The position numbers and the translations under genes were made by a program. From positions 1 through 26,377 of IMG/VR virus record IMGVR_UViG_3300043446_002735: DNA of 26,377 bases; one strand, written 5' to 3'. Below are positions 6,980-25,202 of this stretch, in pieces. The notes under the pieces were generated by a model that had not been told where the DNA came from, did no database searches, and was given only the letters and a program-made list of their open reading frames with translations. The stretch is from a virus. Each line of letters opens with the position of its first letter. Position 1 is the stretch's first letter.

Positions 6980-6984
6980 GTAAA

Positions 6985-6992: not shown

Positions 6993-7004
6993 GGAGCATA
7001 TTTT

Positions 7005-7012: not shown

Positions 7013-7016
7013 TCTA

Positions 7017-7530: not shown

Positions 7531-7936
7531 ATACGCATTCAGTATCAAAGCCCAACTGTTCCATTGGAATGTGGAGGGTCCTGATTTTGCACAACTGCAT
7601 GAGTTTTTCGGAAACCTATATGAAGAAGTCTACGACGGTTCCATAGACAAAACAGCAGAATACATTCGCGCCCTGGGCGACTACTCGCCAGGCAGTTTTG
7701 AACGCTTTGCAGAATTATCCACTATCAAAGGGCAAACAAAAATCCCACGTGCCCGTCTCATGATTGAAGAATTATTGGCCAACAACGATCAATTGCTTGA
7801 TTTACTCAACGAAACATTTGCCACTGCTGAACAAGAAAATCAGCAAGGCATTGCAAATTTTATAGCAGAACGCATCGATGCTCATCAAAAGCACGGCTGG
7901 ATGCTGAGAAGTTTCTTGAAAGATGAGAGAGCATGA
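7493..7936 (+). CDS. Dps-like ferritin-family protein
   Basis: 147 residues with a GTG start, preceded by AAAAGGAACC at suitable spacing; no ATG fits. The core HWNVEGPDFAQLHEFF at 24-39 is the Dps signature, with His24 and His36 at the 12-residue spacing of the E. coli ferroxidase ligands His51 and His63. Asp52 and Glu56 match Asp78 and Glu82. The equivalent of Asp67 appears to be Gly40 or Asn41, so the di-iron site may be altered. Family members form 12-subunit cages that oxidise and store iron and often bind DNA. In a phage the role could be protection of DNA from oxidative damage. It overlaps the next gene (ATGA). Confidence 0.8.
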   Translation: MLADSLKILLATEYAFSIKAQLFHWNVEGPDFAQLHEFFGNLYEEVYDGSIDKTAEYIRALGDYSPGSFERFAELSTIKGQTKIPRARLMIEELLANNDQLLDLLNETFATAEQENQQGIANFIAERIDAHQKHGWMLRSFLKDERA

Positions 7937-8707: not shown

Positions 8708-11700
8708 ATGATAGTAGACCAATTATTCACCCCCAAACTCATTCGCGAAGGCGAAGTATACGACCTAGGTCGTGAATACGGTGCACCTGCTCCGGGCAAG
8801 AAGCCACTGCCACGTGGCGGTAGTATTCCAAGACGCCATGATGACGAACCAGACTTCATGGACCCAGACCAACGTAGACTACGTGCTGACCAAGAGCGTG
8901 TCAAGAAGGCACAAGATGAATATCATGCCAAAAAAGGTGTGGCGGAAAGCAATACTAATATAAGTCGACTACAGCAAAGGATTGATAATGCATATAGTCG
9001 CATTTACAACAGGGGAGACAATGGGCTAGAATATATGATGGGACACGACCAATACATTTCTGGCCTAATGGACAGATATCTTGACGACACGCTGTTTGCC
9101 GCATCTAACCCTAAACATTTGAAGTTGTTAGCAAACAGTTTAGAGACAATTGCCAATGACATGGAAGAGGACTTAGTAGAAGGAGGTGTGGCGGAAGGCA
9201 CAGAGGACATGCCTTTTGGTTCTGTAACACAACCTGACCAAACACAAACATACGTGGCACCTTCTAGACAAGACATTTGGGACAAGGCTGAATTAACCAA
9301 TCGTCAAGCCGAAGTAAGAGATTACAAACAAACCTTGTTGCGGTATGCAAGAAAAAATGGTCGCCAGGCCGCAGAGCAAGCCTGGGCTGAAAAGACCGAT
9401 GTAAAAATGACCATTGAAGAAATACTGGAATTTTTAGATGCCACTATTGCCGATCCTGGCCTCACTCCCGAGGAATTCCTGGGCACTCAAGGACTGGAAG
9501 AAAACGCCGGTCAAGACAGCAAGTCTTGGATGGACAGCATTCGACAACAACATCCTGATGTGCGATTTGTGCAGGCAAAAATGCCAGGTGCACCTATTAT
9601 AGCCTTGGTCAATGGCAAGCCTGTGGCACAGTTTGATACCAAAAAAGGTGTGGCCGAAGGGCGGCTTAATAAACAACGCCGACTCAACGAAGCCATGCTC
9701 ATGGAAGATCCCATCTATCGCAATTTCAAGCGTGTGGGTCGTTACATTGCTGAACGCAAGATGAGCGAAAAAGAAATCTTGCAAGTGTTTGCTGATGCCG
9801 AAGCAGGCATGACTGACAAGGCCACCGGAGCCAACCGTACGTTCCTGGGTCGTGGCAAAGACACTGCCATGGACTTTGCTGGTGGCGTGTCCAATGCGCT
9901 CAACAGCGTATGGTCTGGTATACAAAACTCAGTGCCTGTGTCTGCTGTGGATGTGGCCTACGATCAAGCCACTGACGCACTTGCTGGTCTCACAGGTGGC
10001 CAAAAAGGCGCCGTGATGCAGGCCATCAAGAAGTATCGCAATCTAGCCAAACAATATCCCAAAACAGCCGGTCTTGCCAAAGGAGCCTTGGTTGCTATCA
10101 CAGGCTTGGCCACTGGCGGCGCCAGTTTGCCTGCTGTGGCTGCATTGGTGTATGGTTTGGATTCGGCCATCAAAGGAGAGAAAGCGTCAGACATTGCACT
10201 CAAGGCCGGTGGAGCAGCTGCCACTGCCTGGGCTGGTCAAAAAATTGCGTCGGCATTGGGCGGTCAACCCACAGGCACTGATGCTGGTGGTCTTGATCCC
10301 AGCCAATTCCCTGCTTTTGACGACGAAGGCAACTTGATGCCTGGATTTCATATCAATCCAGAAACTGGCTCAGCATACTACAATCCCAATATCCCCAACG
10401 AAGTCAGTGCCCTGTCTGTGCCCACTGATGCTGGCCTAGCCGGCACACCCATGGGAGGTGGTACCTATACAATACAAAACGGTGACCAACTTGGCTACAT
10501 AGCACAGGCCAATGGCGTCAGCGTTGAAGACATTAGAGGCCTGAATCCTCAGATTGACTTCAGCAAGCCATTGCGACCTGGCATGGAAATACAGTTGCCT
10601 GTGGCTGGCACTCCAGGTCAAGGTTCAGTATGGCAAGGTTATCAAGGCGGCATGTATGGCGATAAAGTTGCTGGCGCTACATCCAATGCTGGCCAAGGTT
10701 TGCCAAGTCACGCAAGTGCCGCAGGCGATTACGGCACAGGCGGGGGAGCACCCATTGACTACACCTCGCCTGGACCAGAAAGCATAGACAGTCTAGGTAA
10801 CAAACTAGAATATGGTATTCCTGTCAATGCCAAAGGAAGTTTTGTCCCACCTAACCCAAATTTGCCGCCACAAGAACTTGCCGCTCAACAAGCCGCCTAT
10901 GATGCCTGGAAATCGGATTTCATGCGTCGTTTTCCAAATGCTTCACCAGGTCCCGATGGCTCTATGTTGAGTTTCAAGCCAGGCCTTGCACCAATGCAAA
11001 TCTTGCAAAAGCCAACATTACCAGCAGGTGTTCAAGAATCAGTCAAGTTTAAAATAATTCCTGCTGATCGTTTGATTGACCAAAAGACCACAGTATTGGC
11101 CTGGGCATTGAATGAAAGTGTGGGACGAAAAGGCAACAGCATTAGTTTAACCACTCTTGGCACTTACACAGTGTTTGAAAACGTTCGAAGAGTAGCCAAA
11201 GCAGTGAATGTAATGGAACTTAAAGGTGTGCCTGGTAGTTCACGCCCTGCTTACTACCGTCCAGACATGCCCGGCGGTCCTGGCAAAGCCAGCAAGCCAG
11301 GAATAATCGGCCGTGGCCTCAACTGGTTGGACAAAGCCGCTGGCAAAGTTGGCGGCGCTCTAAGCAACTTTGGACATCAGTTTACGACCGGTGTAACCAA
11401 AGAAAAACTCAAGATGAACTGGCATCAGGCCGGCAAACCCAGCGACTCAGATCAATTGGCCGCTTGGTTGGTCAAACAAGGTGTGCCACAAGAAGTTGTG
11501 ACCAGTGTGTACGGCAAAATGGGTATTCCTTACACCGCACCGGCTGTGCAAGCCGCACCACAACCCGCAGGTCAAACACCTGCAGCCACTGACACCACCA
11601 CAGGTGGCGCACAACGATCTGCCTATGCCGGCACCAATCCAGCAACTGGTAAAGCCTGGACAGGCGATGAGTTGAGAAACAAGTTTTTCCCTGCACAACC

Positions 11701-12313
11701 AGCGGCCGCGGCACCTGCAGGCGCTGACTCCACTGCATCTAGCACTGCCGCCCCATCAGGTCCAACACCAACACCTTCTGGCACCAAAACTGCTGCCGGC
11801 ATATTCCCGGGTGAAGATCCACAAGGCCCTAACTATGTTGGACGTAGAGAAGTTGCTCGTCGTCAAGCCGCACGTGCCGCGGCAGCCGCGGCCAAGCCTG
11901 CCGCGCCCAACTTTGCTCAACAAAATGCCGGATACGCCAAAGTCAACATGCCAACAACAATGACTTATTCTGGTATACCAGCATTGAAACCAGGTGCGGC
12001 CAGTGCCACAGCACCCGCAGCCAAAAAAGTGCCCACTCAGGCAGAAAAGGATGCCTACGTCAAATCAATTGGCGCTCCTGCTTTGCCTGAATCGCGCCTT
12101 GCCGCTGTTTTGAGAAAGCCTGTGGAAGAAATGTTACACATGGTTGAGACCAAAGAAGATGTGCAACGTATCAAACAATTTGTTGATGAAACATTTGTAC
12201 GCTATGGAGCCATGAACGAATCAGCATTTGCTGAGCGTGATCAAATACTCAAACATGTAGCACAAATAGGCGCTCAAAAGCGTAGAGAACACAGCCAGAG
12301 AATGGCCACCTAA
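8708..12313 (+). CDS. 1201-residue LysM-containing modular protein, probable virion protein
   Basis: The largest gene here. The N terminus MIVDQLFTPKLIREGE has I-R-E at 12-14. Three GVAE motifs at residues 77-80, 160-163 and 314-317 separate early modules. Residues 455-515 are Ala/Gly-rich and hydrophobic. A LysM domain lies at about 586-632 (YTIQNGDQLGYIAQANGVS, then LNPQ and PLRPGMEIQLP), a known peptidoglycan/chitin-binding module. Further on are a module around KLKMNWHQAGKPSDSDQLA, a long Ala/Pro/Thr linker and a charged helical C terminus from about 1115. No catalytic motif for a hydrolase is evident. The mix fits a cell-wall-binding tail or packaged protein. It ends the presumed structural block; a promoter follows. 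Confidence 0.8.
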   Translation: MIVDQLFTPKLIREGEVYDLGREYGAPAPGKKPLPRGGSIPRRHDDEPDFMDPDQRRLRADQERVKKAQDEYHAKKGVAESNTNISRLQQRIDNAYSRIYNRGDNGLEYMMGHDQYISGLMDRYLDDTLFAASNPKHLKLLANSLETIANDMEEDLVEGGVAEGTEDMPFGSVTQPDQTQTYVAPSRQDIWDKAELTNRQAEVRDYKQTLLRYARKNGRQAAEQAWAEKTDVKMTIEEILEFLDATIADPGLTPEEFLGTQGLEENAGQDSKSWMDSIRQQHPDVRFVQAKMPGAPIIALVNGKPVAQFDTKKGVAEGRLNKQRRLNEAMLMEDPIYRNFKRVGRYIAERKMSEKEILQVFADAEAGMTDKATGANRTFLGRGKDTAMDFAGGVSNALNSVWSGIQNSVPVSAVDVAYDQATDALAGLTGGQKGAVMQAIKKYRNLAKQYPKTAGLAKGALVAITGLATGGASLPAVAALVYGLDSAIKGEKASDIALKAGGAAATAWAGQKIASALGGQPTGTDAGGLDPSQFPAFDDEGNLMPGFHINPETGSAYYNPNIPNEVSALSVPTDAGLAGTPMGGGTYTIQNGDQLGYIAQANGVSVEDIRGLNPQIDFSKPLRPGMEIQLPVAGTPGQGSVWQGYQGGMYGDKVAGATSNAGQGLPSHASAAGDYGTGGGAPIDYTSPGPESIDSLGNKLEYGIPVNAKGSFVPPNPNLPPQELAAQQAAYDAWKSDFMRRFPNASPGPDGSMLSFKPGLAPMQILQKPTLPAGVQESVKFKIIPADRLIDQKTTVLAWALNESVGRKGNSISLTTLGTYTVFENVRRVAKAVNVMELKGVPGSSRPAYYRPDMPGGPGKASKPGIIGRGLNWLDKAAGKVGGALSNFGHQFTTGVTKEKLKMNWHQAGKPSDSDQLAAWLVKQGVPQEVVTSVYGKMGIPYTAPAVQAAPQPAGQTPAATDTTTGGAQRSAYAGTNPATGKAWTGDELRNKFFPAQPAAAAPAGADSTASSTAAPSGPTPTPSGTKTAAGIFPGEDPQGPNYVGRREVARRQAARAAAAAAKPAAPNFAQQNAGYAKVNMPTTMTYSGIPALKPGAASATAPAAKKVPTQAEKDAYVKSIGAPALPESRLAAVLRKPVEEMLHMVETKEDVQRIKQFVDETFVRYGAMNESAFAERDQILKHVAQIGAQKRREHSQRMAT
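8928..8943 (+). repeat. Direct repeat copy A encoding a K-K-G-V-A junction
   Basis: CCAAAAAAGGTGTGGC, identical over 16 bases to the copy at 9639-9654. It encodes the first of three GVAE motifs in the 1201-residue protein. Confidence 0.75.
9185..9196 (+). repeat. Shorter repeat copy encoding GVAE
   Basis: GGTGTGGCGGAA, identical to bases 8936-8947, encodes the second GVAE motif. The flanking lysine codons of copies A and C are absent. Confidence 0.6.
9639..9654 (+). repeat. Direct repeat copy C encoding a K-K-G-V-A junction
   Basis: Identical over 16 bases to 8928-8943; encodes the third GVAE motif, 711 bases downstream of copy A in the same frame. Confidence 0.75.
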
Positions 12314-12777: not shown

Positions 12778-15438
12778 ATGAGTTATATTGACGCACTATT
12801 TGATCGTGAGCACGATCGCATACACACAGTAGAACGCCGCAATGGCGAACGGGTTTATCGAGAGTTCCCGGCCAATTATGTTTTCTACTATGATGATCCC
12901 CGGGGCAAGTTCCAAAGTATCTATGGCACACCTGTCGCAAGATTCTCCACACGCAACAACAAGGAGTTCCGCAAGGAAGTTCGCGTTCACAGCCATAAGC
13001 CGCTGTATGAAAGCGACATCAATCCAATCTTTAGATGCCTTGAAGAAAACTACAAAGACCAAGATGCGCCTGAACTTCACACAGCGTTTTTTGACATTGA
13101 GGTGGCTTTTGATCAAGAACGTGGTTTTAGTCCGGTGGAAGATCCTTTTAATCCAATTACTGCAATCTCGGTCTATCTAGACTGGCTGGATCAACTGGTC
13201 ACATTGGCAGTGCCACCCAAGCATTTGAGTTGGGCCACTGCACAAGAACTAGTGGCCGAGTTTGAGAACACAATTCTGTTTGACAACGAAGCAGACATGA
13301 TCAAAACATTCTTGGATCTAATTGATGATGCAGATGTGCTCAGTGGGTGGAACTCCGAAGGCTATGACATTCCCTATACCGTAAACCGAGCCACTCGTGT
13401 GTTATCCAAAGATGACACACGTAGATTTTGCCTGTGGAACCAACTGCCCAAGAAACGAGTGTTTGAACGCTTTGGCGCAGAGAACGAAACCTATGACTTG
13501 ATCGGTCGTGTGCATATGGACTATATGCAACTGTATCGCAAGTACACCTATGAAGAGCGTCATTCATACTCGCTGGATGCTATTTGTGAATATGAACTAG
13601 GCGAACGCAAAACACAGTTCGAAGGCACACTGGATCAATTGTACAATCAACACTTTCGCACGTTCATTGAGTACAACCGCCAAGATACTGCTTTGATCGG
13701 TAAGTTGGACAAAAAACTGCGCTTTTTGGATCTGGCCAACGAACTGGCACATGCCAATACTGTGTTGCTCCAGACCACTATGGGTGCTGTGGCTGTGACT
13801 GAACAGGCCATTATCAATGAAGCACACGAACGTGGCATGGTTGTGCCCAATCGCAAGCAACGACTCACTGATGAAGACACACAGGCCGCAGGCGCCTATG
13901 TGGCCTATCCCAAGAAAGGTGTGCATGAGTGGATTGGATCAGTTGACATCAACAGTTTGTATCCGTCAGCCATTCGGGCCATGAACATGGGACCAGAAAC
14001 TGTGGTAGGACAACTGCGGCCCGTCATGACTGATCATTTGATACAATCCAACATGGCCAAGGGCATGAGTTTTGCGGCTGCCTGGGAAGGCATCTTTGCC
14101 AGTTTAGAATACACAGCCGTGATGAATCAAGAGCGTGGCACAGAGATTACCATCGACTGGGAGAACGGCGAAGAGAGTGTACACAGTGCCGCAGAGATTT
14201 GGAGCATCATATTTGATTCAAATCAACCTTGGATCTTGACCGCCAATGGTACTATTCTCTCATTTGAGAAAAAGGGTATCATTCCCGGCCTGTTGGAGCG
14301 TTGGTATTCGGAGCGCAAAGAACTACAAGCCAAGAAGAAGGAAGCCAAAGATGCCAAAGAAATTGCATTCTGGGACAAGCGACAACTGGTTAAAAAGATT
14401 AACCTCAACAGTCTCTACGGCGCTATCCTTAACCCGGGTTGTCGTTTCTTTGACAAACGTATTGGACAATCCACAACACTTACTGGTCGTTCGATTGCGA
14501 AACACATGGACGCTTATCTTAACGAATGCATCACAGGCCAATATGATCATGTCGGAGCGGCAGTCATCTACGGAGATACTGACTCATGTTATTTTTCAGC
14601 CTGGCCTGCGATTAAGAACGAAGTTACGGAAGGACGCATGGCGTGGAGTAAAGAGATTTGTATCCAACTGTACGACAGCCTTGCTGAACAAGTAAATGCA
14701 AGTTTTCCTGCGTTTATGGAGCAAGCATTTCATTGTCCCCGAGACATGGGTTCGCTAATCAAGTGTGGTAGAGAGACTGTGGCAGACCGTGGCTTGTTTA
14801 TCACCAAGAAACGCTATGCTGTCAACGCCATTGACATTGAGGGCAAGCGACTGGATGTAGAAGGTCGGATTGGCAAGACCAAGGCCACCGGACTTGACCT
14901 GAAACGTTCAGATACACCCAAAGTTATTCAGGACTTCTTGTTAGAAATTCTAAATAAACTACTTGCTGGTGCAGGTCGAGATGAGATTGTGGAGCGTATT
15001 CGTGAATTCAAGTATGAGTTCAAAGAGCGTCCTGGCTGGGAAAAAGGATCACCCAAGCGTGTGAACAACTTGACCAAGTATGCAGCCGAGGAGGCACGAC
15101 TGGGCAAGGCCAATATGCCAGGGCATGTGCGAGCCGCAATCAATTGGAATCAACTGCGCAAGATGAATGGAGACAACTACTCAATGCAGATCGTAGATGG
15201 TATGAAAACTATTGTGTGCAAACTCAAGTCAAATGCCTTGGGTTGGACATCAATTGGTTATCCCACAGATGAACAACGCCTGCCTGAGTGGTTCAAGCAA
15301 TTGCCGTTTGACGACGGCGAGATGGAGGCCACTGTGGTGGACGGCAAGGTTGACAACTTGTTGGGCGTGTTGGATTGGGATTTGGCCTCGGCCACCAACA
15401 CAGAAAATACATTTACCAGTTTGTTTGATTTTGAATGA
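12778..15438 (+). CDS. 43: Family B DNA polymerase (T4 gp43-like)
   Basis: 886 residues, about the size of T4 gp43 (898). ATG at 12778 follows GGAG. The 3'-5' exonuclease motifs are present: FFDIE at 104-108 (Asp106, Glu108), WNSEGYDIP at 191-199, and YNRQD at 299-303. Polymerase motifs follow: DINSLYPS at 390-397 (motif A), KKINLNSLYG at 539-548 (motif B) and YGDTDS at 598-603 (motif C), then KKRY at 677-680. The last residues TSLFDFE resemble the C-terminal clamp-binding peptide of T4 gp43 (which ends in SLFDMFDF), fitting the sliding clamp gene downstream. All catalytic residues appear intact. It replicates the phage genome as part of the gp43-gp45-gp44/62 holoenzyme. Confidence 0.97.
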   Translation: MSYIDALFDREHDRIHTVERRNGERVYREFPANYVFYYDDPRGKFQSIYGTPVARFSTRNNKEFRKEVRVHSHKPLYESDINPIFRCLEENYKDQDAPELHTAFFDIEVAFDQERGFSPVEDPFNPITAISVYLDWLDQLVTLAVPPKHLSWATAQELVAEFENTILFDNEADMIKTFLDLIDDADVLSGWNSEGYDIPYTVNRATRVLSKDDTRRFCLWNQLPKKRVFERFGAENETYDLIGRVHMDYMQLYRKYTYEERHSYSLDAICEYELGERKTQFEGTLDQLYNQHFRTFIEYNRQDTALIGKLDKKLRFLDLANELAHANTVLLQTTMGAVAVTEQAIINEAHERGMVVPNRKQRLTDEDTQAAGAYVAYPKKGVHEWIGSVDINSLYPSAIRAMNMGPETVVGQLRPVMTDHLIQSNMAKGMSFAAAWEGIFASLEYTAVMNQERGTEITIDWENGEESVHSAAEIWSIIFDSNQPWILTANGTILSFEKKGIIPGLLERWYSERKELQAKKKEAKDAKEIAFWDKRQLVKKINLNSLYGAILNPGCRFFDKRIGQSTTLTGRSIAKHMDAYLNECITGQYDHVGAAVIYGDTDSCYFSAWPAIKNEVTEGRMAWSKEICIQLYDSLAEQVNASFPAFMEQAFHCPRDMGSLIKCGRETVADRGLFITKKRYAVNAIDIEGKRLDVEGRIGKTKATGLDLKRSDTPKVIQDFLLEILNKLLAGAGRDEIVERIREFKYEFKERPGWEKGSPKRVNNLTKYAAEEARLGKANMPGHVRAAINWNQLRKMNGDNYSMQIVDGMKTIVCKLKSNALGWTSIGYPTDEQRLPEWFKQLPFDDGEMEATVVDGKVDNLLGVLDWDLASATNTENTFTSLFDFE

Positions 15439-16410: not shown

Positions 16411-17133
16411 ATGAGAGATTACTTGTTAGACTTGGTAGAACACACTTATGATTTGGGCTGTATTGACCTGATCAAGATTGTGGGCGACACCAGCAAAACT
16501 GAAATTGTGGGTCTAGCCGAAGACCTTAGTGTGGTTATTCGTGGCAACTTCCACAATCCTGTGGCAGACTTTGTGGGCACATTTGGTATGCCTAACTTGG
16601 GCAAACTGAAAACTTTGTTGAATCTCCAAGAATACAAGGAAGATGCCAAACTCACTATCACCAAACGTGCTGATGGTGAGCCCGATGGCGTTAACTTTGA
16701 AAACAAAATAGGCGACTTCCAAAACAACTATCGTTTGATGGCGTCAGGCATTGTTACTGAAAAGTTAAAAACTGCCAAGATTCGTCCTGTGACCTGGCAC
16801 ATTGAATTTGAACCAACCAATGCGGCCATTCAACGACTGAAGTGGCAAATGAGTGCCAATGCAGAAGAAGCCAACTTCCAGGCCAAAACTGAAGGCAATG
16901 ATCTCAAATTCTTCTTTGGTGATCATTCAACCCACTCAGGTAACTTTGTGTTCCACCCAGGTGTAACTGGTCAACTCAAACGTGCATGGGCTTGGCCTGC
17001 CAAACAGTTTGTGAGCATCATGGATTTGACCGGCGACAAAACTGTGCGTATTTCTGATGATGGCGCCGCACAAATCACAGTAGATTCTGGGTTGGCTGTT
17101 TACAACTACCTCATTCCAGCACAAAGCAAGTAA
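16411..17133 (+). CDS. 45: Sliding clamp, T4 gp45-like
   Basis: 240 residues compared with 228 for T4 gp45. It has its own sigma-70-like promoter and a strong Shine-Dalgarno AGGAGA. The pattern matches gp45 of marine T4-type phages, for example GMPNLGKLKTLLNLQEYKED around residues 57-76 and repeated alternating strands in both halves, with a basic/aromatic patch GQLKRAWAWPAKQF near 188-201. There are no catalytic residues in this family. The trimeric ring tethers DNA polymerase to DNA, and in T4 it also activates late promoters together with gp33 and gp55, which fits the late octamers in this window. Its stop overlaps the dpdA start (TAATG). gp44 and gp62 loader genes are not in the window. 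Confidence 0.75.
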   Translation: MRDYLLDLVEHTYDLGCIDLIKIVGDTSKTEIVGLAEDLSVVIRGNFHNPVADFVGTFGMPNLGKLKTLLNLQEYKEDAKLTITKRADGEPDGVNFENKIGDFQNNYRLMASGIVTEKLKTAKIRPVTWHIEFEPTNAAIQRLKWQMSANAEEANFQAKTEGNDLKFFFGDHSTHSGNFVFHPGVTGQLKRAWAWPAKQFVSIMDLTGDKTVRISDDGAAQITVDSGLAVYNYLIPAQSK

Positions 17134-18698
17134 TGACCGAACCCGTTGTTCAAGATAATCTAACGGCCAAGCAGAGTGACTATGCAGTCTTTCTGCCTGC
17201 TATCTCTGGCTTTTACGCTACGTTTATAGGCAAGCAAAGAAATGAACAATATGTCGATCCGGCGAGATTTCCACAGGGCCTCACTGATATGGAACAACTT
17301 AACTGGCTTAACAGCCAAAGGTCGTTATTCCCATACCGGTGGAGCCTGTACTCGGGTGGACATGCAAACCTTGATCTCTCTAAACAAGACTGGTCGGAGG
17401 ACATGGTTCGAAATCGTGAGCCAGGCACGTTTATATTGGGAGACTCTGGTGGGTTTCAAATTGCGAAAGGTTTGTGGGAGGGCGATTGGCGAGCCAACTC
17501 AGGTTGTCCTAAAGCACAACGCAAGCGTGAACTTATTTTAAATTGGCTAGACAACGTTGCTGACTATGGCATGATCTTGGATATTCCCACATGGGTTATT
17601 CATGACAAGAAGGCATCAGCGGCGTGTCAAATTACCACACTACAAGAAGCAGTGGACGCAACCAAGTTCAACAATGAATACTTTATGAAACATCGCAAAG
17701 GTGTTCGCAATGGTGGTGCTAAGTTCTTGAATGTGTTGCAAGGTGACAATCACACTTCAGCAGATCAATGGTATGAAACCATGAAAGAATACTGCGATCC
17801 TCAAAAGTATCCGGACACACACTTTGATGGTTGGTCAATGGGTGGACAGAACATGTGTGATGTACACTTGGTACTTCGCAGACTGGTAGCCTTGCGCTAT
17901 GACAATTTACTTCAAGAAGGCCGGCATGATTGGATGCACTTCTTGGGAACCTCCAAACTGGAGTGGGCTGTTTTATTAACTGTAATTCAAAGGGCCGTAA
18001 GAAAATATGTCAATCCTGCATTTACAATCTCGTTTGACTGTGCCTCGCCATTCTTGGCCACAGCAAACGGACAAGTCTACTTTGAAAACGTCTTCGAACA
18101 CGACTCAAAATGGTCGTATCGCATGGCTCCTTCAGCCGATGACAAAAAATATGCAACAGACACACGCAGGTGGTCAACAGGAGTAGTGGCAGACGGAATC
18201 TATCCGCGCTGGCAAGACTCGCCCATCAGCGACCTGCTGACAATGAAAGATATCTGTATCTATAAACCAGGCGACTTAAACAAGATTGGCAAGGAAGGCA
18301 AAACATCCTGGGACAGTTTCTCTTATGCTTTGCTCATGGGTCATAATGTTTGGATGCACTTGACAGCAGTACAAGAAGCCAACCGACGCTTTGACGCTGG
18401 CGAACATCCGGCTATGATGCGGCGAAGTGGAGGAGACTATGCCCGGTTTGAAGACATTGTGGAAGCAATATTTGCGGCGCCAGATCGTGAAACTGCCGAA
18501 GCCATTATTGAACAGTATGACTCATACTGGATGGAGATTGTGGGCACACGAGGATTCAAGGGCAAGAAAACCAAAAACGCTCGAACTCAGTTCAACGCAT
18601 TGTTCGAATTCGAAGAAACTGACACTGTACAACCCAATGATGATAGTGTACAATTAGACACATCAGCACTAGATCAATTAGAGCATGAACAGACCTGA
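17133..18698 (+). CDS. dpdA: DpdA-like DNA 7-deazaguanine transglycosylase (TGT family)
   Basis: 521 residues. The core is a TGT TIM barrel: GDSGGFQ at 103-109 (general base Asp104), MILDIPTW at 147-154 (Asp150, as base-recognition Asp156 of bacterial TGT), LQGDN at 202-206, GWSMGGQ at 233-239, and FDCASP at 301-306 with nucleophile Asp302 followed by NGQVYF as in TGT. The CxCxxC...H zinc site of bacterial tRNA TGT is absent, and the protein is longer than the usual 370-380 residues, with an extra C-terminal part from about 410. These features point to DpdA, which replaces guanine in DNA with a preQ0-type base, rather than a tRNA enzyme. FolE and QueD genes downstream support this. Expected effect: protection from host restriction. 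The DpdA subgroup cannot be assigned by eye. Confidence 0.85.
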   Translation: MTEPVVQDNLTAKQSDYAVFLPAISGFYATFIGKQRNEQYVDPARFPQGLTDMEQLNWLNSQRSLFPYRWSLYSGGHANLDLSKQDWSEDMVRNREPGTFILGDSGGFQIAKGLWEGDWRANSGCPKAQRKRELILNWLDNVADYGMILDIPTWVIHDKKASAACQITTLQEAVDATKFNNEYFMKHRKGVRNGGAKFLNVLQGDNHTSADQWYETMKEYCDPQKYPDTHFDGWSMGGQNMCDVHLVLRRLVALRYDNLLQEGRHDWMHFLGTSKLEWAVLLTVIQRAVRKYVNPAFTISFDCASPFLATANGQVYFENVFEHDSKWSYRMAPSADDKKYATDTRRWSTGVVADGIYPRWQDSPISDLLTMKDICIYKPGDLNKIGKEGKTSWDSFSYALLMGHNVWMHLTAVQEANRRFDAGEHPAMMRRSGGDYARFEDIVEAIFAAPDRETAEAIIEQYDSYWMEIVGTRGFKGKKTKNARTQFNALFEFEETDTVQPNDDSVQLDTSALDQLEHEQT

Positions 18699-19212
18699 CC
18701 ATGACACAGCCAACTTCTTTGTTGGCACAGAAGTAGAACGCACGCCTGCATTTGGCAAAAGAACATTGTTTGTTGTGGGCGTTCAGCCCATAGATCAAAT
18801 CATAGAACGCATTGCCGAAAACAACAATTACATTGATCAATCCCGACATATTCAACATATCTTCTTTGGTGCCAATCACAGTTTCCATCCTGCCAACAGA
18901 TTGGAATGGCAACGTTGGGAAAGCATGATTGAACCATTCCTTGGCGATGGCCACTTGTGTAGCCTAGACATTCCCATCACGCATGTGGAGGAATTCAATG
19001 ACGGTCCTTTGTGTGACTACAGAAACTTCATTCCACAAATTCGAGTAAGCATTCCATATACAAAACTATGGAACTATAATACAATGTTAAAAATAGATGA
19101 CCGAGACTTTGACGCTACCAATCCTGGTGTTTGGTGCCACAGTCTACATACTCTAATGAGCCGTGATACATTTACATCATGGGACGACTATCGTGAGGAC
19201 ACAGTTATCTAA
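18685..19212 (+). CDS. Conserved phage protein overlapping dpdA, unknown function
   Basis: 175 residues, starting 14 bases before the dpdA stop, so probably co-translated with it; only a weak TTAGAG precedes the ATG. Clear conserved-looking blocks are FFVGTEVERTP at 11-21, TLFVVGV at 27-33, HIFFGANHSF, IPYTKLWNYNTMLKIDDRDF and NPGVWCHSLHTLM. The alternating strands and helices suggest a compact alpha/beta fold with invariant-looking His, Cys and Asp. I recognise it as a family common in T4-type cyanophages but with no known function. The overlap with dpdA makes a link to base modification possible, though unproven. Confidence 0.75.
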   Translation: MNRPDHDTANFFVGTEVERTPAFGKRTLFVVGVQPIDQIIERIAENNNYIDQSRHIQHIFFGANHSFHPANRLEWQRWESMIEPFLGDGHLCSLDIPITHVEEFNDGPLCDYRNFIPQIRVSIPYTKLWNYNTMLKIDDRDFDATNPGVWCHSLHTLMSRDTFTSWDDYREDTVI

Positions 19213-19613
19213 TGGCAACATATCCCGCAATCATGGGTGCCAAGGCCAGTGCCCGACGACATAAGATGAATCAAATCTATGGCGGTACAACAGCCCCCAC
19301 AGTTAAACCAGCGAGAAAATATCAACCAAAAGGACCCAATATGTTTAAAAGAATGATCAGAGGCTTGATCACTTGGAGCATGAACGATCGCCAGCCGGAA
19401 GAGATCCAAATATCTGACCGTGAAGAAGTTAGAATCAGTTCCACAGGCATTAGATTTGAAGTATACAGAGCCAACGGTGGCACAGTGATTGAAACTCGTC
19501 GCATGGATCGTAGATCGGGTGACAATGTGTTTGAACTACATGTGATCTCAGCGGATCAAGACATTGGCGAAGCAATTGGCAAAATCATAACCTTGGAGGC
19601 ACTCAAAGCATGA
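19212..19613 (+). CDS. Small basic phage protein, unknown function
   Basis: 133 residues, start overlapping the previous stop (TAATG). The first 55 residues are basic and disordered-looking (KASARRHKMNQ, KPARKYQPKGP), then a short amphipathic helix (FKRMIRGLITWSM) and a beta-rich half (EVRISSTGIRFEVYRANGGTVIETRRMD) that ends in a helix. No motif recognised. It is part of a tightly overlapping run from dpdA to about 20.1 kb, which suggests one transcript. Confidence 0.7.
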   Translation: MATYPAIMGAKASARRHKMNQIYGGTTAPTVKPARKYQPKGPNMFKRMIRGLITWSMNDRQPEEIQISDREEVRISSTGIRFEVYRANGGTVIETRRMDRRSGDNVFELHVISADQDIGEAIGKIITLEALKA

Positions 19614-20062
19614 ACCAGCGAGCACAAGCACTGACAGAACAACGTGAAAGGATCAAGCAACATGCCGAACGTAAAATCTGGGTCACCTTCCGCAAAGAAG
19701 GAATCCACCGATATCCTGCTGCCGCAACTGATCCTGCATTGGCGACCGGCGATGAGTATGATGTGTCTTTTCTTGGTGTGCCTCATAGACATATCTTTCA
19801 TTTTAGAGTTTGGATTGATGTATTGCATAACGATCGCGATATCGAATTTATTCAGTTCAAACGATGGTTAGAAAACTTGTACAAGGACGGCATCTTGCAA
19901 CTGGATTACAAAAGTTGTGAAATGATGGCCGATGACTTGTACGCAGAAATATCAGCACGTTATCCTGATCGTGCTGTATGGATTGAGGTGGCCGAAGATG
20001 GTGAGAACGGCGCCTTGATCAAATATGAAATTTCTCGCCCTAGTCTTTCAATCAAAATCTAA
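19610..20062 (+). CDS. Possible T-fold (PTPS/QueD-like) protein
   Basis: 150 residues, ATGA overlap with the upstream gene. The first 25 residues form a charged helix. The body reads like a tunnelling-fold unit: VPHRHIFHFRVWIDV at 57-71 where PTPS/QueD has its HGHxxxV strand, then RDIEFIQFKRWLENLY at 75-90 where QueD has the DF..LK helix, YKSCEMMADDLYAEI at 99-113 where QueD has the T.EN.A helix, and VWIEVAEDGENGALI at 119-134 where QueD has the V.V.ET strand. The order and spacing fit, but the HGH zinc motif is HRH and no catalytic Cys precedes it. It could be a divergent pterin or deazapurine enzyme or an inactive relative. Known to me only as an uncharacterised T4-type aquatic phage family. 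Confidence 0.65.
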   Translation: MNQRAQALTEQRERIKQHAERKIWVTFRKEGIHRYPAAATDPALATGDEYDVSFLGVPHRHIFHFRVWIDVLHNDRDIEFIQFKRWLENLYKDGILQLDYKSCEMMADDLYAEISARYPDRAVWIEVAEDGENGALIKYEISRPSLSIKI

Positions 20063-20072
20063 GGAAAATAAA

Positions 20073-20297
20073 ATGGCCAAGCCATCATTCAAACCCAATC
20101 CTCGTGTGGCTGAGATCTTCAACGATCTAGAAGTGTACTTGGAGTTCTGCCAGGACTATGGGTATCGTTACAACGAGTCGGACTTGTACAACTTCAAGAG
20201 TTATGCCTGGCAACAGTTCAACAAGTGGCACCAAGGCAAGAATGCCAAGAACATGTGGAGTGAGGATGCTCGACGCTTTGCAGGTTTTAGGAACTGA
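20073..20297 (+). CDS. Small conserved phage protein, unknown function
   Basis: 74 residues. I choose the ATG at 20073 because AAGGAA lies five bases upstream; a longer frame from 20025 overlaps the previous gene. The sequence is rich in aromatic residues and Asn/Lys, with a helical pattern (VAEIFNDLEVYLEFCQDYGYRYNESDLYNFKSYAWQQF split across two helices) and a basic segment KWHQGKNAKNMW. No known domain. I recognise it as a small protein recurring in T4-type aquatic phages. Confidence 0.7.
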   Translation: MAKPSFKPNPRVAEIFNDLEVYLEFCQDYGYRYNESDLYNFKSYAWQQFNKWHQGKNAKNMWSEDARRFAGFRN

Positions 20298-20299
20298 GC

Positions 20300-20743
20300 A
20301 TGGGTGCCGCAAGAGAAAAAGATCAAGCGGACTTTGACTTAGAACGCTTTGTCAACATGTTTGATGAAGCCATGACAAGTTCGGATCCGCGTGTGATCGA
20401 AACACTACGCAGTCTCATGATGATTGTGGCCATGACCCGTCCAGAATCAAATGACATACACAGCGAACGCAAAGGTCCACTACGCAGAGCGTTTGAAGAT
20501 ATGAATCATCTTTGGAAACGCTTGGAACAAATGGAACAAGAACTCCGTCAAATGCATCAGCGTATGAGTCGTGAGTTAGGGCCACGAGTAGAGGCTTGGC
20601 CAGAGCACGAAGAAAAATACAAAATGATGGCGGCCTCACAAATGGCACAGAGCATTGATGACGATGTAATGAGGAGCATTGCCCGTCAAATCAACTCGCC
20701 TGGACTAAATCTGGCTCGACCCAAAGGACTACTAAAAAAATGA
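20300..20743 (+). CDS. Helical coiled-coil phage protein, unknown function
   Basis: 147 residues. It begins two bases after the previous stop and its stop overlaps the glycosyltransferase start (ATGA). Mostly helical and charged, with a clear heptad-like stretch around residues 60-95 (FEDMNHLWKRLEQMEQELRQMHQRM) predicted to form a coiled coil. The C terminus is basic (LARPKGLLKK). No family recognised; possibly an adaptor or oligomeric partner of a neighbouring gene product. Confidence 0.7.
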   Translation: MGAAREKDQADFDLERFVNMFDEAMTSSDPRVIETLRSLMMIVAMTRPESNDIHSERKGPLRRAFEDMNHLWKRLEQMEQELRQMHQRMSRELGPRVEAWPEHEEKYKMMAASQMAQSIDDDVMRSIARQINSPGLNLARPKGLLKK

Positions 20744-21942
20744 GAAAACTATTTTATATGGCCTTGGAAAGTTACGAAGCCCGCTACACACTACAACTAA
20801 CAGAGTGGAATCGACGTGTGTTTGAACGTCGTGGCTTGGACGTGGTTTATGTTCCTGGCACAACCATTGACAACACACAGGCCATCTCTGTAGGACAGGT
20901 GTTGGACGCACATGGTCGCAGTTATTTCTCAATGAGTCAGATGATGAACTTGGTTCAAATGATGAAGAACGGCAAAGTCACTGGTGAGGATGTGATCTAC
21001 TTTGAAGACATGTTCCAGCCGGGCATCGAGTCATTGCCTTATATCATGGATCAAATTCCCCAGGCTCAACGTCCACAAGTGTGGGTACGCTGTTTGGCAC
21101 AGGCCATTGACCCCGATGACTTTGTGCATGTCTGGGGCATGGCAGGATGGATGAGTACATATGAAAAAATGGTCAATCACTTTGTTACAGGAGTTCTTGC
21201 TACCAATGAGGAGATGGTCGCACACATGCGAATCGCAGGCTGGACAGCCCCGATCTATAACATATCTGGATTGGCATTCGGAAAGAGCGAGGTCCTGGAA
21301 CGCATCGGCGGCAGTGAAAAAATCACACCGTTTGGCGATCGTCCACGACGGGTCGGCTTCGCGGCTCGTTTTGATCAGGAGAAGCAGCCGGGCTTCTTTA
21401 TGGACCTCATTGAAATGTATGGCAAACTCACCAGCGAGCCATGTGAGTTTGCAATATACAGTGGCGGACCTTTGCGATCCAACAACCCAGAGTTTGTTGA
21501 ACGTGCCCGCCGTATGGAGGCACAAGGCCTACTCCGGATCTATGACAATATAATCAAGAACGAATACTATGCTCTACTGAACAATACTCGTGTGCTGTTT
21601 AATTGTGCTCTTCAAGACTGGGTCAGCAACACAGTTTCCGAGGCTGACACTCTTGGCTGTAATGTTCTTTATCCTGCCTATCGTAGTTTCCCCGAAACTT
21701 TTGCCAATGATTCTAACCGACTTTATGTTCCTTGGTCAATAGATGATGCTTATCACAAACTGCAAAACCTCTTGCGTGAACCGCATCACAACATGGGTCT
21801 TATCAGTGATTGGAACAACGGAACTGTGGATCGTATCGTTGATATCATCTCTGGGCAAGGTGAGCAATGGAATAGAGCAGGCAACCGCTATCGTGACCAT
21901 GTTGCTCATGAAAAATACCAAGTAAGAAAAATCGAAGAATGA
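20740..21942 (+). CDS. GT-B fold glycosyltransferase
   Basis: 400 residues. The N-terminal half has YFEDMFQPGIESLPYI at 87-102 and EEMVAHMRIAGW at 157-168. The C-terminal half has the GT4-like pattern: VGFAARFDQEKQPGFF at 205-220 at the start of the second Rossmann domain, FNCALQDWVSNTVSEADTLG at 287-306, where Glu301 stands in the position of the nucleotide-sugar-binding Glu of the EX7E motif, and VLYPAYRSFPE. I recognise this protein as a common glycosyltransferase of T4-type cyanophages. The sugar donor and acceptor are not known; a GalE-like epimerase overlaps it downstream and could supply the donor. Targets may be phage DNA, virion or host surface. Confidence 0.8.
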   Translation: MRKLFYMALESYEARYTLQLTEWNRRVFERRGLDVVYVPGTTIDNTQAISVGQVLDAHGRSYFSMSQMMNLVQMMKNGKVTGEDVIYFEDMFQPGIESLPYIMDQIPQAQRPQVWVRCLAQAIDPDDFVHVWGMAGWMSTYEKMVNHFVTGVLATNEEMVAHMRIAGWTAPIYNISGLAFGKSEVLERIGGSEKITPFGDRPRRVGFAARFDQEKQPGFFMDLIEMYGKLTSEPCEFAIYSGGPLRSNNPEFVERARRMEAQGLLRIYDNIIKNEYYALLNNTRVLFNCALQDWVSNTVSEADTLGCNVLYPAYRSFPETFANDSNRLYVPWSIDDAYHKLQNLLREPHHNMGLISDWNNGTVDRIVDIISGQGEQWNRAGNRYRDHVAHEKYQVRKIEE

Positions 21943-22889
21943 GTGTTGTAATTGTCACCGGCTCAGCCGGATATATTGGAGGACAAACTGTTTTGCAGTT
22001 GAAAGACGCAGGACACGAAGTCTATGGCATTGATCGTAGAGAACCTCCCCGGCATTTGGCCGGCGTTTGTGATAGATTCTTGTACCAAGACTTTGCCAGT
22101 GATGTGGCGCTGAGTTGGATCATTGCCAAACAACCGGATGCTATTATTCACTGTGCTGGCACAAGCCTAGTTGGTCCTTCAGTGTCAGATCCCGCAGAAT
22201 ACTACAACAACAATGTGGCCAAGACACTGAAGATGCTGGACATTGTTCGCCGTAGTTTGCCCCGAACTAGATTTATTTTTAGTTCAAGTGCTGCCACATA
22301 TGGTGAGCCTATAATGGTACCGTGTCATGAAGTCGATCCTTGCCAACCAGTAAGTCCATATGGTGAGAGCAAACTCATGATTGACATGATACTAGAATCA
22401 TATCACCGAGCATATAACCTAGACTATGTATCATTTCGCTACTTCAATGCCTGTGGTGCTGATCCACAAGGACGGCACGGACAAGAACCCGGTGCCACAC
22501 ATTTGATTGCACGATACTTGGAAGCCACAAGAGATGACGGACAGTTTAAAATATACGGCGTGGATTATCCTACTGATGACGGGACCTGCATACGCGATTA
22601 TGTTCACGTTGATGATATCGCGCGAGCACACGCTTTGGCCTTGTACCGAGAGATTCCTGCGGGCATCTATAACCTTGGATCAAATTCGGGACACTCAGTC
22701 AAACAAGTAATACAACGTGCAATGGACATCACCGGCAAGAATCCCAACATTCAAATTGGTGAAGCCCGTGCTGGAGATCCGCCCATGCTCACTGCCAGCG
22801 CAGACAAGTTCAACTTGGTAGCAGGTGCTTGGCGGCACCATGATCTGGATGCCATGATTCAACATGCATGGAATTGGTATGTTCGATAA
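21939..22889 (+). CDS. galE: NAD-dependent UDP-sugar 4-epimerase (GalE-like)
   Basis: 316 residues, ATGA overlap with the glycosyltransferase gene. An extended-SDR protein: TGSAGYIGG at 7-15 binds NAD, SSSAATYGEP at 115-124 holds the catalytic Ser/Thr, and YGESK at 141-145 supplies Tyr141 and Lys145. RYFNACGADPQGRHG at 167-181 and IRDYVHVDDIA at 218-228 are typical of UDP-glucose/UDP-GlcNAc 4-epimerases. It is slightly shorter than E. coli GalE (338). It would interconvert UDP-glucose and UDP-galactose (or the N-acetyl forms), supplying a nucleotide sugar to the adjacent glycosyltransferase. The exact substrate cannot be read from sequence. Confidence 0.85.
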   Translation: MSVVIVTGSAGYIGGQTVLQLKDAGHEVYGIDRREPPRHLAGVCDRFLYQDFASDVALSWIIAKQPDAIIHCAGTSLVGPSVSDPAEYYNNNVAKTLKMLDIVRRSLPRTRFIFSSSAATYGEPIMVPCHEVDPCQPVSPYGESKLMIDMILESYHRAYNLDYVSFRYFNACGADPQGRHGQEPGATHLIARYLEATRDDGQFKIYGVDYPTDDGTCIRDYVHVDDIARAHALALYREIPAGIYNLGSNSGHSVKQVIQRAMDITGKNPNIQIGEARAGDPPMLTASADKFNLVAGAWRHHDLDAMIQHAWNWYVR

Positions 22890-23475
22890 AATCTTTAAAT
22901 TTGAACAGGCGCTGGCCAAATTTACTGGAGCACCTTATGCTGTCATGACCGATTGCTGTACACATGCAATCGAGTTGTGCCTGCGATATGAGCAGGTGAG
23001 AGAATGCCAATTCACTCCTTACACCTATCTAAGTATTCCTATGACCATGCACAAGTTGGGCATCCAATATCAATATTTGGATCATGCCTGGCAACGTTGG
23101 GTCGGTGAGTATCCTTTTGTAAACACACGAATCTGGGACAGTGCCCGACGGTTAGAAAAGAACATGTATCGGCCAGGTGCCATGCAGTGTGTGAGTTTTG
23201 GACATGACAAACCTTTACATATAGGCCGTGGTGGTGCTATACTACTTGATGACAAAACAGCGTATGATGCACTGATTTGTATGAGGTATGATGGACGCGA
23301 TCTAAATATCAAGCCTTGGGCGGAGCAGAAGGAATTTAGAGTTGGTTATCACTACAAGCCTACTCCAGAAGAAGCCCTGCAAGGTCTTGCACTGTTGGAA
23401 GGACTCAAGGAATATTGTGCTCCGCCCCGCGAAATTTTGTATCCAGATTTAAGAACAATCACTATCAAGGACTAA
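22864..23475 (+). CDS. Shortened DegT/DnrJ/EryC1/StrS-like aminotransferase
   Basis: 203 residues from the ATG at 22864, or 198 from 22879; either overlaps galE. Recognisable elements of sugar aminotransferases: FEQALAKFTGAPYAV at 13-27 (family opening), IWDSARR at 90-96 with Asp92 at the PLP ring nitrogen, SFGHDKPLHIGRGGAIL at 111-127 with Lys116 as the PLP Schiff-base lysine, and VGYHYKPTPEEALQGLALLE at 160-179 for the family's GYNYRM block. Family members are about 370-400 residues; the C-terminal small domain is missing here. The frame is intact with no sign of a frameshift, so it may be a compact enzyme or a degraded relative. Function presumably on a nucleotide sugar made by the GalE-like neighbour. 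Confidence 0.7.
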   Translation: MHGIGMFDKIFKFEQALAKFTGAPYAVMTDCCTHAIELCLRYEQVRECQFTPYTYLSIPMTMHKLGIQYQYLDHAWQRWVGEYPFVNTRIWDSARRLEKNMYRPGAMQCVSFGHDKPLHIGRGGAILLDDKTAYDALICMRYDGRDLNIKPWAEQKEFRVGYHYKPTPEEALQGLALLEGLKEYCAPPREILYPDLRTITIKD

Positions 23476-23476
23476 A

Positions 23477-24214
23477 ATGACAGAACCAGTATCAGTAAAC
23501 AACATTGACGACAAAGGCTACGAATCTGCGTATCTGTCAGATGCTATTCGTGCTCGCATGAAACGAGACGGCAAGAGGTTTTGGGCCGGCGACAATATCA
23601 GCGATTACTTGCACGACTCAGACAGAGAGCATTTGATCGACGAAGCAACAGCGGCATTTGAAACTGTGCTGGATCGATTGCTGATTGATAGAGAAACAGA
23701 CCCCAACAGTCAAGGCACGGCTCGCCGCTTGGCCAAGATGTACTTTAATGAAATAATGGCAGGACGTTATGAACCAGGACCAGATGCAACATGTTTTCCC
23801 AATGATTCGGCGGACCGTTACGAAGGTATGCTGGTTGTTCGCAGTGAGTTGCGCAGTATGTGCAGTCATCATCACCAACCCGTTGCTGGTGTTGCTTACA
23901 TTGGCATTTTGGCCGCTGGTAAACTCATTGGATTATCAAAGTACACAAGAATCGCACAGTGGTGTGCCCGACGTGGCACTCTCCAGGAGGAACTTTGTAT
24001 TGACATTGCTCGGGAAATACAAAGAGCCACTGACTCGGAAAATGTAGGCGTGTATATTCAAGCCACACATGGCTGTTGTGAGAACCGTGGTATCATGGCA
24101 CATTCAAGTCTTACTCAGACCACTGTGTTACGAGGCTTGTTCAAAACAGATGCAGGTGTAAAAAAAGAATTCATGGACAATATCAAACTACAACAAGACT
24201 TTGCGCCGAGATAA
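23477..24214 (+). CDS. folE: GTP cyclohydrolase I
   Basis: 245 residues, one base after the previous stop. Zinc ligands Cys129 and His132 lie in SMCSHHHQP (129-132) and the third in HGCCENRG (Cys200), matching Cys110, His113 and Cys181 of E. coli FolE. GLSKYTRIA at 152-160 and QATHGC are family signatures. The N-terminal 45 residues are extra compared with the core. FolE converts GTP to dihydroneopterin triphosphate, the first step of both folate and preQ0 synthesis. With DpdA upstream and QueD downstream, the likely role is feeding 7-deazaguanine production for DNA modification. All active-site residues appear intact. Confidence 0.93.
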   Translation: MTEPVSVNNIDDKGYESAYLSDAIRARMKRDGKRFWAGDNISDYLHDSDREHLIDEATAAFETVLDRLLIDRETDPNSQGTARRLAKMYFNEIMAGRYEPGPDATCFPNDSADRYEGMLVVRSELRSMCSHHHQPVAGVAYIGILAAGKLIGLSKYTRIAQWCARRGTLQEELCIDIAREIQRATDSENVGVYIQATHGCCENRGIMAHSSLTQTTVLRGLFKTDAGVKKEFMDNIKLQQDFAPR

Positions 24215-24218
24215 ACAA

Positions 24219-24623
24219 ATGATATCATACGCAACTCTCAAAGCCGCCCAAGATGGCAAAGTAGCACCTTGGACCAACACAGTACCCGAACTGTCAAATA
24301 CTCACGTTGCTGTGTTCCGTGATGCATATCCTGTTGCAGAGGGTCATTTATTGTTTGTGCCCCGAGCCAACACCGATGAATCTATTGTGGTAGCCCTGGG
24401 ATTGGCTTTGTTGACCGGACGACAAATGGTTCAAAACAATCAGTGCGATGCATTCAATGTGGGATTGAACATGGGCACGGCTGCCGGTCAAACTGTGATG
24501 TATCCACACGTACACTTGATACCAAGAATTCATGGAGATACTCCGGACCCTGTGGGCGGTGTGCGTGGTGTCATACCCGGCCAGGCCAATTACAAAAGCG
24601 ATCTGTATCAACAACCTATATAA
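24219..24623 (+). CDS. HIT-family nucleotide hydrolase-like protein
   Basis: 134 residues from ATG 24219; an upstream TTG at 24201 would overlap folE. The histidine triad region reads GQTVMYPHVHLIPR (90-103): the second and third histidines (His97, His99) are present, but the first of the H-x-H-x-H is Tyr95. The middle His is the catalytic one in HIT enzymes, so nucleotidyl hydrolysis is possible. The following GDTPDPVGGVRGVIP at 106-120 is typical of bacterial HIT proteins. HIT enzymes act on dinucleoside polyphosphates or nucleoside phosphoramidates. Between FolE and QueD, it may handle a nucleotide by-product, but no direct link to preQ0 synthesis is known. The stop codon overlaps a late-promoter octamer. 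Confidence 0.8.
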   Translation: MISYATLKAAQDGKVAPWTNTVPELSNTHVAVFRDAYPVAEGHLLFVPRANTDESIVVALGLALLTGRQMVQNNQCDAFNVGLNMGTAAGQTVMYPHVHLIPRIHGDTPDPVGGVRGVIPGQANYKSDLYQQPI

Positions 24624-24626
24624 ATA
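24619..24626 (+). promoter_or_regulatory. T4-type late promoter upstream of queD
   Basis: TATAAATA overlapping the stop of the HIT gene, 78 bases before the queD ATG. With the sigma-70 promoter at 24660-24688 it would give queD both an early and a late start. Confidence 0.55.
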
Positions 24627-24659
24627 TTCTTTTCAGCGGCCTGTCCGGCATCATCCCGC

Positions 24660-24688
24660 TTTACAAACTCTGCTGCCTATGCTACAAT
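24660..24688 (+). promoter_or_regulatory. Sigma-70 promoter with extended -10, upstream of queD
   Basis: TTTACA at 24660-24665, 17-base spacer, TACAAT at 24683-24688 with TG one base before the -10. AGGAGG at 24693-24698 follows, close to the expected start of the transcript and six bases before the ATG at 24705. Confidence 0.75.
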
Positions 24689-24704
24689 ACATAGGAGGAC
24701 AACA

Positions 24705-25202
24705 ATGCAACCTGTAGTTTATAAATTCACGAGTACCAAAGAGTACCACGACGCCTTTCCCTGTGCGTATCGTCAGTGGCGAGCAGACTCGCACTGCAAC
24801 CTAATTCACGGTTACAGTTTCTCAATGAAGTTTTACTTTGGCACAGACCACTTGGATGTGCGCAACTGGGCCGCCGACTACGGCGGACTCAAAGAACTTA
24901 AAAAGACACTGGAAGATCAATTTGACCACACCCTGTTGGTAGCACAAGATGATCCAGAATTGGAAACTTATAAATTGTTACAATCAAAGAACATGGCCAA
25001 ACTCACCATCTTACCCAGACTGGGTTGCGAAGGTTTGGCTGACATGCTTTACCGATATGTCAATGGAGTTTATATTCCTGACATGTGGGGACCGGGCGAA
25101 GCCGAAAGACTGTGGTGCTATCGCGTAGAAGTTCGCGAAACACAATCAAACATGGCTTTCCGCGAAGGGCATCGTGAGTGGAATGAAGATTTATTTGTTT
25201 GA
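24705..25202 (+). CDS. queD: QueD-like 6-carboxytetrahydropterin synthase
   Basis: 165 residues with a near-perfect AGGAGG ribosome site. The T-fold pattern is clear: CNLIHGYSFSMKFYF at 31-45 (Cys31 as the catalytic Cys position), FDHTLL at 73-78 (Asp74, His75), the substrate-anchoring Glu109 in RLGCEGLADML, and VEVRET at 141-146 with Glu145. The zinc site departs from the norm: the usual HGH reads HGY (His35, Tyr37) and the first zinc His appears as FPCAY, so metal binding may use other residues such as His30. QueD turns dihydroneopterin triphosphate into 6-carboxytetrahydropterin, the second step of preQ0 synthesis after FolE. A folate-type PTPS role cannot be excluded. Confidence 0.8.
   Translation: MQPVVYKFTSTKEYHDAFPCAYRQWRADSHCNLIHGYSFSMKFYFGTDHLDVRNWAADYGGLKELKKTLEDQFDHTLLVAQDDPELETYKLLQSKNMAKLTILPRLGCEGLADMLYRYVNGVYIPDMWGPGEAERLWCYRVEVRETQSNMAFREGHREWNEDLFV

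Follow-up and report, generated by a model that had tools for sequence, protein, structure and literature searches.

The window analyzed herein is the entire 26,377-base IMG/VR record IMGVR_UViG_3300043446_002735, which is probably a piece of a larger phage genome. It contains an intact open reading frame (ORF) of 521 amino acids with an ATG start (positions 17133..18698), which, together with its family, is here called TGTL. A family B DNA polymerase gene, polB (12778..15438; PHROG DNA polymerase, 6e-195), and a sliding clamp gene (phrog_12062; 16411..17133) precede TGTL in that order, and a folE gene (23477..24214) and a queD-like PTPS gene (24705..25202) follow it, all on the + strand, as are the other features described below unless stated otherwise. 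An initial annotation, made from the letters of the DNA, proposed that the TGT-like (tRNA-guanine transglycosylase-like) product of the ORF at 17133 serves to modify phage DNA. We show herein that TGTL has the catalytic residues and the predicted fold of this superfamily and keeps to a conserved gene set. It is very probable that the phage of the window, like hundreds of its relatives, has a gene for an enzyme that exchanges guanine in phage DNA for a modified base.

Assignment of TGTL to the DpdA-type transglycosylases

The motifs GDSGGFQ (residues 103-109), LDIPTW (149-154) and FDCASP (301-306) were all found intact where the initial annotation had placed them. Both catalytic aspartates of the TGT superfamily, in the DSGG and FD motifs, are thus present in TGTL. 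By homology with TGT, D104 of DSGGFQ (17442..17459) would be the general base and D302 of FDCASP (18033..18050) the nucleophile; residues D104-Q109, D150 and D302 are invariant across 65 family members with identities down to ~25%. The tRNA-TGT zinc site, CxCxxC...H, which E. coli TGT carries with its CxCxxC at residue 302, is absent from the TGTL of the window, as previously noted, and is not conserved across the family. Purifying selection on TGTL is strong (uncorrected pN 0.046 versus pS 0.55, from one close relative).

A structure predicted from the 65 family sequences had a mean pLDDT of 89.8. When this model was compared by Foldseek with solved structures, all 21 matches with E<0.001 were TGT or archaeosine TGT (arcTGT); among viral models it matched the homologue in Vibrio phage 2.275, a "tRNA guanine transglycosylase" of Achromobacter phage Motura, and the DpdA2 of nt-1. 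The profile comparison that the initial annotation had called for favored DpdA over TGT: hidden Markov model (HMM)-HMM alignment gave TGTL a probability of 97.5 against a DpdA2 profile and 86 against E. coli TGT, with unrelated ORFs at background. Among 161 ORFs scored, KVP40 DpdA2 reached 74, E. coli TGT 50, and the best unrelated ORF 23. In the reverse test, the DpdA2 profile placed a bacterial member of the TGTL family above E. coli TGT.

This similarity is remote. TGTL gave no significant BLAST match to the DpdA2 of nt-1 or KVP40, no profile-profile match to the DpdA1 of phage 9g, no match to any Pfam, PHROG, NCBIfam or PADLOC model, and none in PDB sequence searches with either the protein or its profile. 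The missing Pfam match is uninformative, since 9g DpdA and KVP40 DpdA2 likewise fail the Pfam TGT model. A probe of single target sequences for DpdA3 and DpdA4 returned no TGTL match in the ORFs of at least 200 amino acids of Campylobacter phage NCTC12673 or in bases 1-50000 of HVTV-1, and no DpdA3 was identified in NCTC12673. In view of the lack of a library match and of BLAST similarity to DpdA2, TGTL was read as a new DpdA-type subfamily. Judged by sequence it appears to be neither DpdA1 nor DpdA2, and it may be the same as the DpdA3 or the DpdA4 that Cui et al. 2023 defined. One sequence, L120, bridges TGT and the TGTL family: it carries the zinc motif and also matches the family with 83 bits. 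Its contig (L120:1-9922), binned as Bacilli, carries PTPS-QueE-FolE-QueF-TGTL-QueC within ~6.5 kb, and its TGTL-like enzyme ends in NSLFDF.

At least 599 IMG/VR stretches matched TGTL in two scans, with 599 and 598 confirmed relatives among the matches listed. Among cultured phages, TGTL occurs in 13 records: 11 PA5oct-like Pseudomonas phages (including Paride and MIJ3), Phosso, and Vibrio phage 2.275. The polymerases nearest to that of the window come from jumbo T4-related phages (Sinorhizobium phage Phosso, 49%; Agrobacterium phage Atu_ph07, 47%; Vibrio phage 2.275, 46%). Bacterial homologues of TGTL, in Limnohabitans, Polynucleobacter, Sphingomonas and relatives, adjoin integrases or phage genes. 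Several form two-gene cassettes (L106, L108, L109, L110, L113 and L116; L111, L112, L114 and L118), in which the partner is a protein of 540-590 amino acids, or a divergent one of 500-520, with no assigned function. The vicinity of these cassettes contains integrases, prophage genes or an OGG-like glycosylase and no que genes; they are possibly an uncharacterized system of defense or element protection.

Deazaguanine pathway genes

The folE and queD genes of the initial annotation were confirmed by library models. FolE is a GTP cyclohydrolase I (Pfam GTP_cyclohydroI, 3.2e-38), and the PTPS product matches both Pfam PTPS (6e-16) and the PHROG QueD-like family (5e-36), its nearest cultured relative being that of Acidovorax phage ACP17 (55%). 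In 24 longer relatives, FolE was present in 23, PTPS in 22, and QueE, whose identity is backed by NCBIfam and PHROGs, in 20. TGTL lineages therefore show the co-occurrence with FolE, QueD and QueE that marks DpdA-type systems. Both QueE and QueC had been reported as absent from the window. For QueE, this reflects the end of the contig, which falls downstream of the PTPS gene and before the position of queE in relatives; as the initial annotation had allowed, the rest of the genome would supply it, since queE lies downstream of the PTPS gene in those 20 relatives. The four without QueE are contigs that lack FolE or end at the FolE or PTPS gene. For QueC, the absence held: the suggested search for queE, queC and reductase genes recovered queE, and neither QueC nor QueF was found in the 24 relatives, which include a 331-kb contig, or in PA5oct or Phosso. 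Weak QueC matches in relatives were rejected, one being NAD synthase and the others PP-loop proteins below the cut-off.

The recognized phage genes would thus take the pathway as far as 7-carboxy-7-deazaguanine, and any further step would fall to the host, to uptake or to an unrecognized gene; preQ0 is not assured as the product and may need a host QueC, preQ0 uptake or some other step. A gene for a COG1738 (YhhQ-type, preQ0) transporter stands next to PTPS in four relatives. In L161 (9185-10207) PTPS is fused in frame to such a transporter, and in G008 and G010 the two are separate adjacent genes. Neighbors of TGTL homologues include QueE in PA5oct, and QueF, YhhQ, QueC and FolE in Vibrio phage 2.275.

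The PTPS of the window has HGY in place of HGH, and two of the three canonical metal-ligand histidines are replaced by tyrosine. HGY-type QueD also occurs in Iggy, ACP17 and R5C. The idea that an HGY enzyme acts in place of QueC was rejected: Iggy and R5C have HGY in their sole listed QueD-like gene, and QueC is nonetheless present in both. The PTPS of the window was accordingly treated as a phage variant of QueD. This argument is based on the QueD of 9g, which is functional in E. coli (PMC6884629). In many relatives, a KedN5-family B12 radical-SAM methyltransferase gene, not found in the window, lies between PTPS and a glycosyltransferase gene (L004:17212-19137; also G012, G002 and G016). These relatives are rich in radical-SAM genes, with 17 matches in the 331-kb contig.

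Linkage to the replication clamp

The 240-residue product of the gene directly upstream of TGTL gave no hhalign match to gp45 and was seen as PCNA through its predicted fold alone (E 2e-10, TM ~0.7). In 161 of 180 loci, a clamp gene on the same strand precedes TGTL at a distance of no more than 1.5 kb, with a median gap of ~35 bases. Such surroundings in the genome suggest that TGTL acts on DNA and not on tRNA.

The C-terminus of PolB carries FTSLFDF (15412..15432), a T4-type clamp-interacting peptide whose motif recurs in 73 of 80 unique relatives. TGTL has the same motif, as the putative clamp-interacting peptide FNALFEF (18591..18611), in a C-terminal tail of low pLDDT that is predicted to be disordered. 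Thus TGTL presents the PIP (PCNA-interacting peptide)-like signature of a T4-type clamp client: a disordered terminus that resembles the one of its own polymerase. F-x-x-L-F occurred in 106 of 144 unique TGTL tails, as opposed to 2.5 expected by shuffling. Of the 25 ORFs of the window, two carry it, those of TGTL and of the polymerase. A survey of the last 75 residues of 588 proteins from three long contigs found it in 12, including all three polymerases and all three TGTLs. The tails are also alike within genomes (PolB NNTDLFDW and TGTL NNNDLFGW in Vibrio phage 2.275; FDSLFGW and FNSLFDV in PA5oct). The exact F-x-x-L-F is missing in some family members; in three of them (L057, L226 and L234) the internal motif is lost and a similar one stands at the extreme C-terminus.

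Other DNA transglycosylases end similarly. Of 54 unique tails of environmental DpdA2, 46 have L[F/Y] at the end, and 45 have an SLxxLF-type peptide (e.g., SLEDLF) there. In ACP17, PolB ends in SLDDLFE and DpdA2 in TLDELFE. For DpdA1, 11 of 11 unique tails end in L[F/Y], mostly in a QELF-like form that resembles the beta-clamp peptides of bacteria; the genomes of 9g and Iggy each have a beta-clamp gene next to DpdA. The background for an L[F/Y]-type end was 2.7% of the 588 proteins. The C-terminal SLDFLF of T4 polymerase is a clamp-interacting peptide (PMC12746103), and the RB69 peptide has been crystallized on gp45 (PMC3012046). Taken at the level of sequence, TGTL appears to ride on the phage replication clamp by a polymerase-type tail motif, and clamp tethering may be general among phage DNA transglycosylases.

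A GT4-like glycosyltransferase gene lies beside DpdA2 in 37 loci (e.g., L262:7227-8606 and L294:8601-10001), and its product has an SLxxLF clamp-type tail in 37 of 37. This suggests that the enzyme is a clamp-tethered DNA glycosyltransferase acting on deazaguanine.

Companion genes

The initial annotation described the modification genes as lying among replication and sugar genes. The placement is correct, but these genes look like part of the modification system rather than its mere surroundings. Gene X (18685..19212) overlaps the 3' end of TGTL and encodes a 175-residue protein with no recognizable domain; it is adjacent to TGTL in 111 of the 114 loci with enough downstream DNA. Among cultured phages it is confined to PA5oct-like phages and ACP17; in the latter its place is between FolE and DpdA2. 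Gene X and QueC were never seen together in 8 loci with QueC, in 16 further ones or in the genomes examined. As a hypothesis, gene X may supply the step after 7-carboxy-7-deazaguanine.

Next come a companion with no function assigned (phrog_17812; 19610..20062), present in 121 of 121 loci, and a GT-B-like glycosyltransferase gene (20740..21942) with a weak Pfam GT1 match, present in 99 of 100. A homologue of the latter directly follows TGTL in PA5oct and DpdA2 in ACP17. It was rejected as a carrier of the clamp tail, which occurs in 2 of 135 relatives. Further downstream are an NAD-dependent nucleotide-sugar epimerase (21939..22889; Pfam Epimerase, 2.5e-54; 43 of 43 loci), a short DegT/DnrJ-type sugar aminotransferase (22864..23475; Pfam, 3e-15; 42 of 42 loci), and a part-time companion with a HIT domain (24201..24623; Pfam HIT, 9.9e-9; 27 of 36 loci).

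ACP17 keeps the set of FolE, X, transglycosylase, glycosyltransferase and QueE, has the nearest PTPS, and lacks QueC; its transglycosylase is DpdA2 in place of TGTL. That one transglycosylase stands in for the other among the same partners is the strongest indication that TGTL and DpdA2 do the same job.

Elsewhere in the window, the positions 7493-7936 and 5996-7060 (-) encode a Dps-like protein and a radical-SAM protein whose maturase-like and viperin-like matches are weak. A tRNA-Thr called by ARAGORN at 11536-11634 (-) sits antisense within a long ORF (8708-12313) and is probably spurious.

Discussion

The profile comparison, the predicted TGT fold and the genome context all favor the initial proposal that this phage makes modified DNA. 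The following scheme would fit these data. FolE, QueD and QueE, the last encoded just beyond the window, would make 7-carboxy-7-deazaguanine or a product of it. TGTL would remove guanine from newly made phage DNA and insert the deazaguanine, using D302 and D104, and would reach nascent DNA through its tail peptide, which would bind the phage sliding clamp as the peptide of the polymerase does. Either before or after its insertion, the base is probably a target of gene X and of the glycosyltransferase, and phage DNA so modified would resist host restriction. We consider this scheme, from the DNA guanine transglycosylase to the anti-restriction role, probable as a whole. A broader version, in which tethering is general to three sequence-distinct families, gene X stands in for the QueC step, and the glycosyltransferase decorates the inserted base in PA5oct-like phages, ACP17 and the phage of the window, is put forward tentatively, as a possibility that may well fail.

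Several observations weigh against the scheme. QueC is absent from the lineage. The DpdA2 of KVP40 and nt-1 and the bacterial TGTL homologues lack the tail motif. In T4, contact with the clamp is not the main cause of the dominance of alpha-glucosyltransferase over beta-glucosyltransferase (PMC13216743). Finally, the loci are related, and the locus counts are not independent trials; comparisons across unrelated families hence carry the weight.

If TGTL were instead a phage tRNA-guanine transglycosylase, FolE, QueD and QueE would boost queuosine in tRNA and favor late translation. The TGT fold suits such a role, the three enzymes serve queuosine synthesis too, and QueF and QueA would be dispensable if the host completed the pathway. 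Nonetheless, this explanation is improbable: TGTL has no zinc site, is closer to DpdA2 than to tRNA TGT, is locked to polB and the clamp gene, has a tail of clamp type, and shares its partners X and glycosyltransferase with the DpdA2 of ACP17. Still less credible is a role of the que-like genes in making folate or pterin, unconnected with TGTL. FolE is common to folate synthesis and unrelated-looking sugar genes intervene, yet FolE and PTPS are joined by QueE, for which no part in folate synthesis is known, one relative has a PTPS fused with a COG1738 transporter, and the closest PTPS homologues in cultured phages belong to phages with DpdA.

A more serious objection grants that TGTL acts on DNA and holds that its tail is not a clamp peptide, being a conserved sequence with another role or a product of common descent of neighboring genes. 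In its favor, some family members lack the exact F-x-x-L-F, and KVP40 and nt-1 have DpdA2 without it. Against this, the motif matches the known T4 peptide, sits in a disordered tail, moves to the extreme end where the internal copy is lost, and has a separate origin in DpdA2 and DpdA1, in forms fitting each type of clamp. We regard this objection as unlikely to be right.

Cui et al. 2023 reportedly hold that DpdA inserts 7-deazaguanines after replication. How it finds new phage DNA is, to our knowledge, unexplained. A literature search on DpdA and the sliding clamp returned nothing on DpdA binding the clamp, judging by titles and abstracts. The polymerase-like tail of TGTL, of most DpdA2 and of all DpdA1 tails examined offers a simple and testable answer, and clamp riding, if true, would explain how phage DNA could be modified directly after it is copied. 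The presence of gene X and of the glycosyltransferase hints at chemistry other than that of the known bases; if the broader version above is true, a module without QueC would yield a glycosylated 7-deazaguanine that has so far not been reported from DNA. Since TGTL is abundant in IMG/VR yet missed by the Pfam, PHROGs and NCBIfam models, many phages with modified DNA have probably been overlooked, including the cultured PA5oct and Paride. Both are Pseudomonas jumbo phages, and their DNA is open to a direct check.

Among known systems, the DpdA2 of T4-related phages (KVP40.0122, nt-1, and gp123 of ACP17) is nearest to TGTL by profile. The two have in common the DSGG and D-S-S/A catalytic motifs, the lack of a zinc site, and the company of FolE, QueD and QueE. 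In most environmental DpdA2, too, the C-terminus is a clamp-type peptide, and ACP17 also has gene X and the glycosyltransferase. On the other hand, BLAST does not detect one from the other, their internal insertions differ, and KVP40 and nt-1 DpdA2 lack the tail and are accompanied by QueC and QueF (KVP40). DpdA1 (9g and Iggy) is a DNA transglycosylase, as TGTL probably is, and like TGTL has polymerase, clamp, FolE and QueD for neighbors; its tails end in QELF-like peptides. It differs in its size (~315 amino acids), in having no detectable sequence relation to TGTL, in the presence of QueC, and in a bacterial-type beta clamp. Bacterial Tgt shares the predicted fold and catalytic aspartate motifs of TGTL, but has the CxCxxC zinc site and acts on tRNA. 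A precedent for DNA modification by a clamp-binding enzyme is the alpha-glucosyltransferase of T4 (PMC13216743), which is unrelated to TGT and transfers glucose onto hydroxymethylcytosine; what TGTL would share with it is the place of work, a phage enzyme modifying DNA on the sliding clamp.

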